NCBI GenBank assembly: GCA_002084705.1
Contig: NBLX01000014.1
Span: 1-36,332, forward strand
Reading direction: 5' to 3'
DNA length: 36,332 nt
Source of the DNA: Desulfobacteraceae bacterium 4572_35.1
GTDB lineage: Bacteria > Desulfobacterota > Desulfuromonadia > Desulfuromonadales > Desulfuromonadaceae
Of the stretch, positions 3,095-7,567 are shown piece by piece (within the stretch, counting starts at the first letter, position 1; each line of letters starts with the position of its first letter). The notes beneath the pieces are model-generated. The model was not told the origin of the DNA and ran no database searches. It saw only the letters and a list, made by a program, of their open reading frames with translations. The position numbers and the translations under genes are program-made.

Positions 3095-3123
3095 TCGACA
3101 CATGGGCAGTTATCTATTATAAT
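3095..3123 (+). promoter_or_regulatory. Strong sigma70-type promoter of the symporter/partner-switch operon
   Basis: TCGACA (3095-3100) and a perfect TATAAT (3118-3123) are spaced by 17 nt. Transcription would start near 3130, about 38 nt before the small membrane-protein gene. Within the roughly 300-bp gap 2868-3167 this is the clearest signal. A loose inverted repeat, TTGCCA (2977-2982) and TGGCAA (3006-3011), lies further upstream and might bind a regulator. I see no gene in the gap. Confidence 0.7.
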
Positions 3124-3167
3124 TGCAACGTGAATTGCGGTTTATCTGTATGCGCTGGAGATTTTTT

Positions 3168-3413
3168 ATGTCTGAAAAATCAAAATCTCAACAACGACAG
3201 ATGTGGATTTTGTTTTTTATTTTGGGCGTAATTATGCTCAATTTCCCCTTTATCCAAATTTTTAATCGACCTGAAACAATCTTTGGTATTCCGGTTTTTA
3301 TACTATACATACTGTGTGGTTGGCCTTTTTCTATTGTTGTCATATATCTTTTTTCACGCACCATAATCGAAGATAACAATAAACAATCCACAGGTGACAA
3401 CAATGACCTATGA
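3168..3413 (+). CDS. Small two-helix membrane protein, probable symporter small subunit
   Basis: An 81-residue protein with two predicted membrane helices (about 12-30 and 40-63) joined by a short loop containing NRPETIFG, with a polar tail. Small two-helix partners precede several bacterial sodium/solute symporters (for example DUF4212 and DUF485 proteins). By analogy this may be a subunit or assembly partner of the next gene product, though it matches neither family clearly. The start is set by ctggag at 3155-3160, seven bases before the ATG. A longer frame from 3123 lacks this support and lies on the promoter. The stop overlaps the start of the next gene by 11 bp, implying translational coupling. 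Confidence 0.75.
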   Translation: MSEKSKSQQRQMWILFFILGVIMLNFPFIQIFNRPETIFGIPVFILYILCGWPFSIVVIYLFSRTIIEDNNKQSTGDNNDL

Positions 3414-6400
3414 ACACATCAATTTAACCATTTTATTTTATGTTTTGATATTGTTTGCCGTCGCTTTTGGTGCCGCTAGCCATCGCAAACACGGTAAAAG
3501 TATTGTTTCCAATCCCCATATCTATTCTCTGACTCTGGCTATATATTGCACTTCATGGACCTACTATGGCAGCGTCGGTCGAGCAGCAACTACTGGGCTT
3601 GATTTTCTTACCATATACCTCGGACCTACTCTTATATCTTTTACGTGGTGGTTCTTACTGCGCAAAATCATTTTAATCAGCAAAGAACATAATATTGTCA
3701 GTATTGCCGACTTTATTGCCAGCCGTTATGGGAAATCAACATATCTCGGCGTAATTGTGACAATATTTGCGGTGTTGGGTATCGTCCCCTATATCGCGCT
3801 GCAACTTAAAGCTATTAACCATACCTTTAACCTCATAGGAAACTGGCCAGACGCCAGCGTGAACGCAGCTACCTTTATAAAATTCGGCGGGGTAGACACA
3901 GCATTTATAGTAGCTGTGTTTTTAGCACTGTTTTGTATTCTATTTGCAGCAATGCGCCTGGACAGTACTGAACATCACGAAGGATTGATAGCAGTCATTG
4001 CATTGGAGTCGATTATTAAATTAATTGCCTTTCTAGCTATTGGTATATTTGTAACCTATGGTCTCTTTGATGGTTTTAGTGATATTTTTACTAAATTTAC
4101 GAACACATTTCCAGATAAACAAAATCTACTTCGGCTCTCACCCACATGCAGCAGTGGTCCACGCTGGTTCAGCATGACATTTATGTCAATGATGGCGGTA
4201 ATGTTTTTGCCACGTCAATTTCACGCCATGGTAATTGAAAACACTAATCACAATCATGTACGCACCGCCATGTGGGCATTCCCAGCATATCTATTTCTCA
4301 TTAACTTATTTGTATTGCCTATTGCCGTAGGCGGTCTTCTCACATTTAACGGCGATACTAGCCTTGCTGACTACTATGTTTTGAGCCTGCCCTTATCGGC
4401 CAACCAACAAGCATTAGCTGTTTTGGTCTTTATCGGTGGTTTCTCTGCCGCTGCCGGCATGGTAATGCTTGAATCAATCACCTCGGCAACAATGATTTTA
4501 AACAACTTGGTAATGCCTATCATTTTGCGTTTTAATTTAAAAATGACAGACATGTCAGGGATACTGTTAAACATTAAACGTCTTGCAATAATAGGAGTAA
4601 TTTTTCTTGGCTATTTTTATTATCATATTTTGGGAGAATCGGCAGCTCTTATAAATATAGGTTTAATCTCATTTATGGCTGCGACCCAGTTTGCTCCTGC
4701 ATTATTAGCTGGTCTATACTGGGAGAAAGCTAATCAACGCGGGGCCGCTATTGGTTTAATTCTTGGCTTCATTCTTTGGTGCTACACCCTACTTATCCCT
4801 AGTTTTGTAAACGCAGGTTGGTTGCCAACAGGGATCCTTACTGAAGGTCCATTTGCTATAGCGTGGTTAAAACCTACCGCTCTGTTTTATTTGGATAACC
4901 TTGACATCTGGTCACACTCATTATTTTGGACACTATTTTTTAATATAGGTGCATTTTTAACAATCTCAATCACCACAAAACAATCTAAGCAGGAGCAGGA
5001 ACAGGCACACCGTTTTGTTCAGGTATCAACTTGGGACAAAAATAAAAACCAGCTCAGCCGCTTAAGTAAAGCGCCGTCAATTATGGAATTTGTAGATTTA
5101 ATGTCCAAATTTATTGGCGAGAAAGAAGCCCACACTGCTATTGCGGAATATCTGGGAGACAGAACAGTTGATGAAAAAGGCAGCCTGTCTGAATACGAAA
5201 TACCTAATTTAAAACGATTTACTGAAAAAACTCTGGCAGCATCGGTCGGTGCCGCTTCGGCTAGGATAATAATTGAAAATTACCTGTCAGCACGTGGCAG
5301 TAAAATGGAAGATATTTTCAATATCTTCGGTACTGTCAGTTTAAGTCGTAATGCAAGTCGCGAACAATTGTCGGTTTTATATGAGGCAGCTAACGCTGTA
5401 TCCAGCGGAGCAGACCTAGATGATATTTTTGACAGTATCCTCGAATTACTCTATCGCCAATTTCGCTTTGATCTGTGCGTTCTTCGTTTTTATGATGAAC
5501 AAGAAAATAAATTAATTGTCAGAAATTTCAAGGGAATAGATACAGACTTCCTCTCTCGCGCCGATAGAGAAATCAATGATGAAACCTGCATTGGCAAAGC
5601 TTACATAAACAATAAAATACAATTGGCAAACGATAGTGACTGCGTGGATAACCCGGTATCTGTAGCTATTGTTCAACGTGAAGGAATCAAATCTTTTGCC
5701 CATGCTCCAGTAACCATAGAGGGACAACCCATAGGCGTTCTTTCCTCATATTCACATTATTCCAAGGGGATATATACCGATGAATTTATTGAGCTTTATA
5801 AAAATCTGGCAGCCCAAATTGGTATTGCCTGGCGCAATGCTAACCAGATAGCAAAACTCATAGAAGCCAGTGAGCAGGAAAAAGAGTTACGCATAGCCGA
5901 ATCTATTCAATTAGGTTTACTACCGGATAAAATGCCTGACATCTCTGGTCTAGACATAGCCGGCATATGTATCCCAGCAAAACAGGTCGGTGGTGATTAC
6001 TATGATTTTATAGTACAATCTCCCGATATCGATATTGTGATTGCAGATGTTTCTGGTCACAATGTTGGCGCTGCTCTACTTATGGCCGAAGCACGGACGT
6101 TTATTCAAGCCAGGGCAAGACTTCTTGTTTCACCAACAGTTGTTGTAGATTCGTTGAACAGGTTTCTATATAAAGATTTAACTAAGGCTGAACTATTTAT
6201 CACCCTATTCTACTTGAAGTATGATCATGACAAAAAACTTATGACATACACCAATGCTGGGCATAATCATCCTCTGGTCTATCACTCATCCACAAAAAGT
6301 TTTGAAGAGCTAGATACTGAGGGTCTTATTTTGGGTATTAAGCAAGAGGTGTCTTTCGAAGAACGCCACGGGATACTTGAAACTGGCGACATCTTAATTA

Positions 6401-6603
6401 TGTACACTGATGGAATTATCGAGGCAACAAATAATAAAGGGGAGTTATTTGGCCTTGAACGGTTAAAAAATGCTATAATTGAAAGTATAGATAATGATTC
6501 TCAAACAATAATTGATAATACTCTTATCATTGCCCGCATGTTTCAGGGGCAACGACATTTTGTTGATGATGTAACCATGATTGTTGTAAAAATAAATCAA
6601 TAA
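3403..6603 (+). CDS. Sodium/solute symporter-GAF-SpoIIE (PP2C) phosphatase fusion sensor
   Basis: A 1066-aa membrane protein combining transport and signalling domains. Residues 1 to about 525 form an SSS/PutP-type symporter with about 13 helices. A linker follows, then a GAF domain (about 650-815), a short helix, and a SpoIIE/RsbU-type PP2C phosphatase (about 830-1066). All metal-binding aspartates are present: GGDYYD (Asp865), ADVSGH (Asp882), YTDG (Asp1003) and DDVTM (Asp1055-1056). PP2C enzymes of this type dephosphorylate STAS proteins, and the next gene encodes one. In the better known CbrA proteins an SSS domain is fused to a histidine kinase; here the output is a phosphatase. The ATG at 3403 is preferred over GTG 3394 because aggtga (3392-3397) makes a good ribosome site for it. 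The transported solute is unknown. Confidence 0.93.
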   Translation: MTYEHINLTILFYVLILFAVAFGAASHRKHGKSIVSNPHIYSLTLAIYCTSWTYYGSVGRAATTGLDFLTIYLGPTLISFTWWFLLRKIILISKEHNIVSIADFIASRYGKSTYLGVIVTIFAVLGIVPYIALQLKAINHTFNLIGNWPDASVNAATFIKFGGVDTAFIVAVFLALFCILFAAMRLDSTEHHEGLIAVIALESIIKLIAFLAIGIFVTYGLFDGFSDIFTKFTNTFPDKQNLLRLSPTCSSGPRWFSMTFMSMMAVMFLPRQFHAMVIENTNHNHVRTAMWAFPAYLFLINLFVLPIAVGGLLTFNGDTSLADYYVLSLPLSANQQALAVLVFIGGFSAAAGMVMLESITSATMILNNLVMPIILRFNLKMTDMSGILLNIKRLAIIGVIFLGYFYYHILGESAALINIGLISFMAATQFAPALLAGLYWEKANQRGAAIGLILGFILWCYTLLIPSFVNAGWLPTGILTEGPFAIAWLKPTALFYLDNLDIWSHSLFWTLFFNIGAFLTISITTKQSKQEQEQAHRFVQVSTWDKNKNQLSRLSKAPSIMEFVDLMSKFIGEKEAHTAIAEYLGDRTVDEKGSLSEYEIPNLKRFTEKTLAASVGAASARIIIENYLSARGSKMEDIFNIFGTVSLSRNASREQLSVLYEAANAVSSGADLDDIFDSILELLYRQFRFDLCVLRFYDEQENKLIVRNFKGIDTDFLSRADREINDETCIGKAYINNKIQLANDSDCVDNPVSVAIVQREGIKSFAHAPVTIEGQPIGVLSSYSHYSKGIYTDEFIELYKNLAAQIGIAWRNANQIAKLIEASEQEKELRIAESIQLGLLPDKMPDISGLDIAGICIPAKQVGGDYYDFIVQSPDIDIVIADVSGHNVGAALLMAEARTFIQARARLLVSPTVVVDSLNRFLYKDLTKAELFITLFYLKYDHDKKLMTYTNAGHNHPLVYHSSTKSFEELDTEGLILGIKQEVSFEERHGILETGDILIMYTDGIIEATNNKGELFGLERLKNAIIESIDNDSQTIIDNTLIIARMFQGQRHFVDDVTMIVVKINQ

Positions 6604-6627
6604 TTCAAATCTCAGGAGAACTAACTA

Positions 6628-6963
6628 ATGATTGTATCTATAGAAGAACACGGTGCGGTTGTCACCCTATCGCTACAGGAAGAAAGACTAGATGCTCATA
6701 ACAGTAACGAATTAAAGTCTCAACTATTAAATTTGTTTGAAGAGGGTAAAAACAAGATAATTATCGATCTTGCAGATGTTAGATTTATTGATTCATCGGG
6801 GTTAGGTGCGCTGGTTTCAGGCTTTAAAAATGCAAGTTCTCGCGATGGCAGTCTAAAACTGTGTAGCCTGCAAACCCAGGTAAAGTCTATGTTTGAACTG
6901 ACCAGACTTCATCGTGTATTTGAAATTTTTCCTAATCCAGAGGAAGCACTAGCCAGTTTTTGA
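6628..6963 (+). CDS. STAS-domain anti-sigma factor antagonist (RsbV/SpoIIAA-like)
   Basis: A 111-aa single STAS domain. The phosphorylation loop reads FIDSSGLGAL, with the probable phosphoserine at Ser56, the position used in RsbV-type proteins. Its predicted role is to bind the RsbW-like kinase when unphosphorylated, freeing that kinase's target. Phosphorylation by the kinase (next gene) and dephosphorylation by the PP2C domain (previous gene) would set its state. The ribosome site caggag at 6613-6618 lies nine bases before the ATG, and the gene starts 24 bp after the phosphatase stop, so it is in the same operon. Confidence 0.93.
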   Translation: MIVSIEEHGAVVTLSLQEERLDAHNSNELKSQLLNLFEEGKNKIIIDLADVRFIDSSGLGALVSGFKNASSRDGSLKLCSLQTQVKSMFELTRLHRVFEIFPNPEEALASF

Positions 6964-7144
6964 GATTTATACAACAACTCAACTAATTAGCTATATGTGA
7001 TGATCTCGCAAAACACATAGAATGGCTAAGCAAAATTTCGTACCCCAAGACGTAGTGGTTGATCAAGGGGAGAAAGCGCGGCAAAGCAGGTGGGTGGGGT
7101 TTCTGCGACACCATCATATGTATTCTGTTAATGGAGATAGAGTT

Positions 7145-7567
7145 ATGAAAAATCAACTCGAAATGGACATTAAAGTTCCCAATCAAACACGTTATCTTGG
7201 CTTGATTGGCAAAATTGGTGAGGATATCGCGTATACTCTGAAAAACTACAATAACGACCGTGATGAACTAGCCTACCATATTAATTTGGTATTAACAGAG
7301 GCTATGGCTAACACCATAAAACATGCTAACAGCAACGATCCATGCAAAGATGTTCATATAACCATCAACGTGTCGGATGAAAACCTGTGTATCAAGGTTT
7401 ACGATCAGGGACAAGGTTTTGACATAAGTACTACCGGCACCGCTTTGCCTGAACCAACTGATGATCACGGACGCGGCATATTCCTCATCAACACCCTTAT
7501 GGATAGTGTAACTTATAAAAATTGCGGGAATGGTAATGTTCTGGAGATGAAAAAAAGACTTAACTAA
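7145..7567 (+). CDS. RsbW-like serine kinase / anti-sigma factor (HATPase_c)
   Basis: A 140-aa GHKL ATPase of the RsbW/SpoIIAB type, predicted to phosphorylate the STAS protein and sequester an output protein. The N-box reads LTEAMANTIKHAN, G1 is DQGQGFD and G2 is DHGRGIFLI, so ATP binding looks intact. The ATG at 7145 is preferred: GGAGAT at 7133-7138 lies about six bases before it and the protein then has normal family length. A start at 7022 would add 41 residues with no domain character and no ribosome site. No sigma factor gene lies nearby, so the target may be encoded elsewhere or may not be a sigma factor. The stop overlaps the tail of the convergent HAD gene remnant. Confidence 0.9.
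   Translation: MKNQLEMDIKVPNQTRYLGLIGKIGEDIAYTLKNYNNDRDELAYHINLVLTEAMANTIKHANSNDPCKDVHITINVSDENLCIKVYDQGQGFDISTTGTALPEPTDDHGRGIFLINTLMDSVTYKNCGNGNVLEMKKRLN

Follow-up and report, generated by a model that had tools for sequence, protein, structure and literature searches.

The 36,332-nt stretch of contig NBLX01000014.1 (positions 1–36,332) of Desulfobacteraceae bacterium 4572_35.1 (assembly GCA_002084705.1; order Desulfuromonadales, class Desulfuromonadia), referred to here as the window, carries on its forward strand an operon of four genes for a small membrane protein, a fusion of a symporter-type domain to a PP2C phosphatase, a STAS protein and an RsbW-like kinase. We consider it probable that the fusion is a CbrA-type transceptor in which an RsbU/SpoIIE-type phosphatase has replaced the histidine kinase and acts on the adjacent STAS-RsbW switch. 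Observed directly are the domains, the order of the genes, how well both are conserved, and that a single sensor lineage carries either a kinase or a phosphatase.

Open reading frames (ORFs) and Pfam/NCBIfam matches place all four genes where an initial annotation had put them. In the fusion (3403..6603; 1069 aa for the ORF read from GTG 3394), residues 13–634 align with the cryo-EM structure of CbrA (PDB 10ed) at E 5e-70, across an SLC5 (SSS) membrane domain (3430..4953, approximately residues 13–520 of 1069) and a STAC domain (5044..5298, approximate limits). The former is also indicated by the model helices and by Foldseek matches to SGLT, NIS and SiaT-type structures, and the latter corresponds to a helical segment of the model. 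This match makes the fusion kin of CbrA, which the initial annotation had cited only as an example of the usual fusion of SSS domains to histidine kinases; the parallel with CbrX and the kinase-type relatives had been overlooked. SLC5, GAF and PP2C of the proposed SSS-GAF-SpoIIE protein are present, but the STAC domain between SLC5 and GAF, which the 10ed alignment covers, had been missed. For the protein of the window Pfam SSF stayed short of E 0.001, and it was above cut-off in three of the six relatives scanned whole (L074, L180 and L173; not L182, L101 and L109). The GAF domain (5410..5832; PF13185, 1.4e-15) matches 2qyb (E 2.8e-27), the structure of a GAF domain from a membrane protein of Geobacter sulfurreducens, which a fusion from another family of the class (L097) matches more strongly (E 7e-47). 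AlphaFold2, run on 49 aligned fusions, gave a mean predicted local distance difference test score (pLDDT) of 82.5 and a predicted template modelling score (pTM) of 0.59, with one long helix joining GAF to PP2C (model residues 793–839; 5779..5919); because the pTM is moderate, the relative placement of the domains was not used. The PP2C/SpoIIE domain (6031..6594; PF07228, E 7e-48 and 3.5e-46 in two scans) stands where SLC5/STAC histidine kinases have their C-terminal HisKA and HATPase_c domains, Foldseek matched it to PP2C phosphatases (RssB, SiaA, SpoIIE) besides the SLC5 transporters found for the membrane part, and the six metal aspartates expected of it are invariant in 49/49 fusions.

The two downstream products were likewise identified as predicted. 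The STAS anti-anti-sigma-type protein (6628..6963) carries the phosphoserine loop DSSG and matches TIGR00377 (1.7e-23), TM1442 and SpoIIAA, while the RsbW-like GHKL kinase (7145..7567) matches PF13581 (5.4e-23), RsbW (6m36) and SpoIIAB. The ORF of the kinase could begin at 7022, and ATG 7145 is its most likely start since most rows of the family alignment (A3) begin there. The DSSG serine and the RsbW N-box are presumed to work as they do in SpoIIAA and SpoIIAB.

The exchange of outputs was seen in an SLC5-STAC tree of 44 proteins, in which 28 PP2C rows fall on one side of a branch with a Shimodaira-Hasegawa-like approximate likelihood ratio (SH-aLRT) support of 98 (quick method; unrooted). 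Five of 49 rows had been left out, namely a divergent, mis-bounded PP2C fusion (L098), two truncated ORFs (L106, L108) and two duplicates (L089, L173). HisKA and HATPase_c were found by Pfam in all 15 kinase rows, and one further row is GGDEF-EAL (Pfam). The alignment with invariant aspartates (A1) includes most PP2C rows, either as such or through the same gene; L180 and L181 were confirmed by Pfam, L049 is an N-terminal piece, and the second L074 copy and L174 were assigned to PP2C from whole-length matches only. L182 and L183 form long branches. Thirteen relatives fetched from other classes (L099-L111) carry HisKA and HATPase_c and are 43–48% identical to the fusion from about residue 13 to 826–837; they and L182, from the same order, possess the same sensor modules (SLC5-STAC-GAF) as the fusion and differ from it in having a HisKA-HATPase_c output instead of PP2C. 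The linkers of the kinase and phosphatase forms are unequal in length (compared without rows L110 and L111). At the level of sequence, one sensor lineage with exchanged kinase and phosphatase outputs is established. On an Azoarcus plasmid (L184:3968-7159), SLC5-STAC is joined to GGDEF-EAL, with a homologous small protein encoded upstream; judged by its domains, sensors of this kind also occur with a third output.

The small protein encoded ahead of the fusion (3168..3413; 81 aa) has two hydrophobic stretches by hydropathy and its own family alignment (A2), and is CbrX-like in place and topology. Its profile matched 14 of 20 loci, comprising kinases (L101, L103, L105-L111, L182, L185), the EAL protein (L184) and two PP2C fusions (L180, L181); L101, L103, L105, L106, L108, L110 and L111 are themselves rows of the profile, and L107, L109, L180, L181, L182, L184 and L185 are independent of it. 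No match was found in L099, L100, L102, L104, L183 or L186, with only ~115 nt available upstream in L099. A homologous small protein therefore precedes 12 of the 18 relatives with kinase or EAL output, including nine of the 13 kinases from other classes and L182. The neighbourhood of L182 (L182:2986-12769) contains, beside the kinase-type SLC5-STAC-GAF protein, DUF294, a HAMP-exonuclease protein and a VC_2705-family symporter with its small subunit, which hints at carboxylates. Acetate or pyruvate as the ligand was considered and set aside as too weak, its basis being published CrbS and RpuS and this single kinase locus.

Gene order was compared in 40 regions from 39 genomes of the order, picked for long contigs. 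The order small protein-fusion-STAS-RsbW was found in 39 of them (counting L049, where the fusion is interrupted by a stop), with lgt and a pseudouridine synthase beyond the four genes in 38; the exception is L074, which has two extra fusion copies. Six class-level regions (L174-L179) contain the same gene set (the STAS gene of L175 being taken from locus record L098). The small gene overlaps the fusion in 25/40 loci (first start codons) and is separated from it by no more than 30 nt in 13; one of the two other spacings, in L074, pairs the small gene with the wrong fusion copy. In the genome of the window (87% complete) STAS is matched once, and of the HATPase_c_2 matches a single one exceeds 80 bits, the four others scoring at most 29 bits. 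Domain content, the 39/40 synteny and the single STAS and strong HATPase_c_2 matches support the pairing, as predicted from sequence, of a transporter-type sensor and phosphatase with its own STAS-RsbW.

In an order sample of 98 genomes, each of the 84 outside one family, f4, had a match with an E value no higher than 1.1e-113, although several of these matches are cut short by a contig end or are split (e.g. G081, G091, G030, G003, G012), the listed match in G081 and G091 being without the phosphatase part; the best match in the 14 f4 genomes was 5.2e-28, at the level of the phosphatase. In a sample of the class, 216 of 244 genomes had an SLC5-STAC-type match at E 1e-60 or better, of which some may be kinase-type. 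Among the 28 without one, 20 were listed: 12 from f4, three order genomes outside f4 (G590, G612, G627; 71–80% complete) and five class genomes outside the order (G488, G491, G503, G519, G530; 99–100% complete). The fusion is thus widespread without being universal. In the phylum sample 78/395 genomes matched, nine from the order (the window's own included), eight from the class outside it and 61 from other classes, and among the matches listed for these 61 none extends past residue 852. The nearest named relatives are Desulfuromonas and other Desulfuromonadales assemblies. Plasmids yielded 377 records with a match, none covering 80% of the fusion. Independent fusions in Bacteroidetes/Ignavibacteria (L083-L087) were rejected, the match being limited to the phosphatase end, and the fusion of genome G032 is broken by a stop codon (L049:7807-11019).

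In the mechanism that we propose, the small protein, probably translationally coupled to the fusion, would pack on SLC5 as CbrX does on CbrA, and SLC5 would probably bind, and perhaps import with protons, a small solute. By analogy with RsbU, the state of SLC5, relayed by STAC, and a cytoplasmic signal received by GAF may jointly order the helix ahead of the PP2C dimer, which would switch the phosphatase on. The phosphatase would then dephosphorylate the adjacent STAS protein, which could bind RsbW and free the target of RsbW, as in RsbV/RsbW.

Several observations weigh against this reading, beginning with gene content. In f4, STAS, RsbW, lgt and the synthase are kept in 10/10 sampled regions and the small protein and fusion are absent (RsbW being present in 13/14 f4 genomes), which speaks against exclusive control of STAS-RsbW by the fusion. 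Extra fusion copies occur without an adjacent STAS-RsbW in the regions covered: L074, L173 (a lone fusion), L180 and L181 (both small protein plus fusion, the L181 contig ending ~490 nt past the fusion); these are perhaps further inputs to one switch. The STAS-RsbW pair is not alone in same-genus genomes, as the complete genomes G002, G006 and G008 have 5, 7 and 7 STAS matches, and in each of them one or more additional HATPase_c_2 matches exceed 80 bits. The earlier view that the operon has its own STAS and RsbW partners is thus supported by adjacency and by the single strong matches in the window's genome, and more weakly in these three genomes. Co-variation of PP2C with STAS was modest, with a partial r after regression on lgt and synthase distances (37 loci) of 0.39, and 0.38 for PP2C-RsbW, compared with 0.68 for STAS-RsbW and 0.67 for SLC5-small protein; label shuffles leave phylogeny in these values. 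A possible alternative, compatible with the proposed mechanism, is that STAS-RsbW serves as a hub for several PP2C phosphatases, the fusion being one input: besides f4 and the extra copies, the window's genome has three SpoIIE proteins, the fusion and two others, yet one STAS match. The position of the fusion directly before STAS-RsbW in 39 of the 40 loci argues against it.

Two P-loop genes of AAA_33/Zeta-toxin-like type lie upstream on the same strand (L165:7678-9288, 536 aa; L179:5282-6844, 520 aa). As such a gene directly precedes STAS in the f4 region L165 and lies before the small gene in L179, loss of the small gene and fusion from between their flanks is suggested; four further f4 regions have a gene there that is alike, judged by size and strand alone. 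A same-strand upstream gene cluster of like size, by size and position only, occurs in 16/40 order loci, and a Pfam scan of the window found no AAA_33-like gene upstream. Loss of acetate oxidation as the cause of the missing fusion in f4 is unsupported, citrate synthase being present in 8/8 f4 genomes tested and in 16/17 genomes overall, the missing match falling in the incomplete genome of the window.

On the sensor side, solute binding or flux may control the dephosphorylation directly, as the initial annotation inferred, but the GAF domain between SLC5-STAC and PP2C is a second possible input, which counts against control by a solute alone, as does the report that overproduced CbrA without its transmembrane domains still signals (available text of PMC6591292). 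That SLC5 only anchors the protein in the membrane, or imports independently of the signal, the phosphatase being ruled by a cytoplasmic signal through GAF alone, is favoured by this CbrA result and by the place of GAF directly before the linker helix. We nevertheless regard it as unlikely: in seven representative fusions the conservation of SLC5 equals or exceeds that of PP2C, and the STAC domain of CbrA is described as docking against the base of SLC5 (accessible part of PMC13022988). In addition, among the histidine-pocket and Na2-site residues which the same source names (Y51, W55, F71, Y75, F406, K196, S53, A56, F248), K196 corresponds to K209 of the fusion (1069 numbering) and is K in 49/49 fusions, and Y51, W55, F71, Y75 and F406 are retained in 46–49 of 49. 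Binding of a solute by SLC5, and perhaps its import with protons, is proposed because this lysine is invariant and the pocket largely kept. At the positions of S53, A56 and F248 the aligned fusions mostly have T, T and S, so the ligand may not be histidine; S also stands at the F248 position in kinase relatives with a usable alignment. The residues suggest that kinase and phosphatase forms share a putatively binding-competent site, whose ligand would be something other than histidine. For the small protein, a search of PDB chains with profile A2 gave no credible match, and sequence kinship with CbrX was not found within that scope. The published cbrX is translationally coupled to cbrA (PMC6591292, in the text available), yet growth on histidine does not need it (PMC13022988, likewise). 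The small protein may therefore have a part in expression, in structure or in both.

As the initial annotation had noted, no sigma factor is encoded nearby: six sigma-factor queries against ORFs of at least 90 aa found none in 61 regions including the whole window. All six sigma proteins that were classified (RpoH twice and FliA from the window's own genome; an RpoS-like protein, RpoH and FliA from the genus member G006) scored below the SigB/F/G cut-off. One might propose that RsbW sequesters stationary-phase RpoS and that the operon is the nutrient gate of the general stress response, given that the HsbR-HsbA and CrsR-CrsA switches act on RpoS (PMC6482189, in the part available), that G006 has an RpoS-like protein and that 0/6 classified sigma proteins are SigB/F-type. 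This target seems doubtful to us, as sigma linkage was absent from the 61 regions, the G006 protein falls under both RpoS cut-offs, and neither RpoS nor RpoD turned up in the window's genome, which must be incomplete at this point since both were missed. Two Geobacter species are reported to have RpoH, RpoE, RpoN, RpoD, RpoS and FliA (accessible text of PMC2700814). Rather improbable in our estimation is the widest form of the hypothesis, in which SLC5, accompanied by a CbrX-like subunit, would import or bind a small carboxylate and thereby set STAS phosphorylation and, via RsbW, the availability of a global regulator such as RpoS, throughout the class of Desulfuromonas- and Geobacter-type bacteria, bypassing two-component signalling. 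Finally, an assembly error merging separate symporter and phosphatase genes can practically be dismissed, the annotation having named it as a way in which its reading could fail: apart from a few split or interrupted copies (G003, G012, G032) nothing was found in its favour, and one reading frame recurs in many independent genomes (single-contig G002, G006, G027 and G195 among them), with relatives in 84/84 order genomes outside f4 and the same gene order in 39/40 loci.

The proposed transceptor-phosphatase can be set beside several known systems. With Pseudomonas CbrA/CbrX (SLC5-STAC-PAS-histidine kinase) it shares the aligned SLC5 and STAC domains, the Na2-site lysine and an upstream two-helix protein, and differs in having PP2C for the histidine kinase, GAF for PAS and three changed pocket residues. 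CrbS/MxtR and RpuS are, like the fusion, SLC5-STAC sensors, in their case of carboxylate use (acetate, pyruvate); they are hybrid histidine kinases with LuxR-type regulators and were compared by description only (PMC9100948, available text). RsbU, RsbP, RsbZ and SpoIIE have in common with the fusion the PP2C fold, metal aspartates, helical linker and a partner STAS protein and GHKL kinase, whereas they lack a transporter domain and their target is known; a coiled-coil linker mechanism has been proposed as general for phosphatases of the RsbU/SpoIIE type (accessible part of PMC12143880). Actinobacterial SSS proteins with HATPase_c, GAF and PP2C_SIG combine SSS and PP2C_SIG in one chain, but include HATPase_c in it, and the available text of PMC7918813 mentions no STAC domain, small subunit or separate STAS/RsbW genes. 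Receptors of the 5TMR (S-component-like) fold fused to SpoIIE also join a transporter-related membrane fold to a PPM phosphatase, although that fold differs from SLC5 and partner-switch genes are not named in the accessible text of PMC11109136.

Upstream of the operon, a sigma70-like promoter (TCGACA-17-TATAAT; 3095..3123, -10 hexamer 3118–3123, forward strand) agrees with 11/12 consensus positions. The earlier description of it as good is upheld in that no other site of the region scores better, but promoter-like sites as such are no more numerous there (17) than in shuffles (mean 16.5). The small protein most likely starts at ATG 3168 and not at the alternative TTG 3123, because position 3123 closes the -10 hexamer; for the fusion, ATG 3403 is the most likely start, giving an 11-nt overlap with the end of the small gene. 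An HDOD-GGDEF protein is encoded further upstream (218-1762), with distant matches at the same place in 5/6 same-genus loci and in 0/34 other sampled order loci, so it does not belong to the conserved operon.

SSS proteins with GAF and PP2C_SIG have already been reported in Actinobacteria (PMC7918813, as far as its available text goes), so the SSS-PP2C combination as such is in print. In a literature search whose sources were partly available and did not include the STAC paper of Korycinski 2015, no other report of SSS and PP2C in one protein was found, nor any of a form that includes STAC and is accompanied by a CbrX-like partner and by STAS and RsbW as genes of their own. The operon and its relatives present a natural exchange of outputs, kinase versus phosphatase, on one transceptor lineage, which fits the idea of an exchangeable toolkit (PMC12143880, in its accessible part), and a simple phosphatase readout could be used to address, in these SLC5-STAC proteins, the question of whether ligand binding or transport drives the signal. 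A GAF domain of this type (2qyb) is also present in the Geobacter sulfurreducens membrane protein. If the proposed mechanism is true, most of the genomes sampled in the class (216/244 having at least an SLC5-STAC-type match) would have a further candidate central regulator, by which a nutrient signal would be passed on without a classical two-component system.

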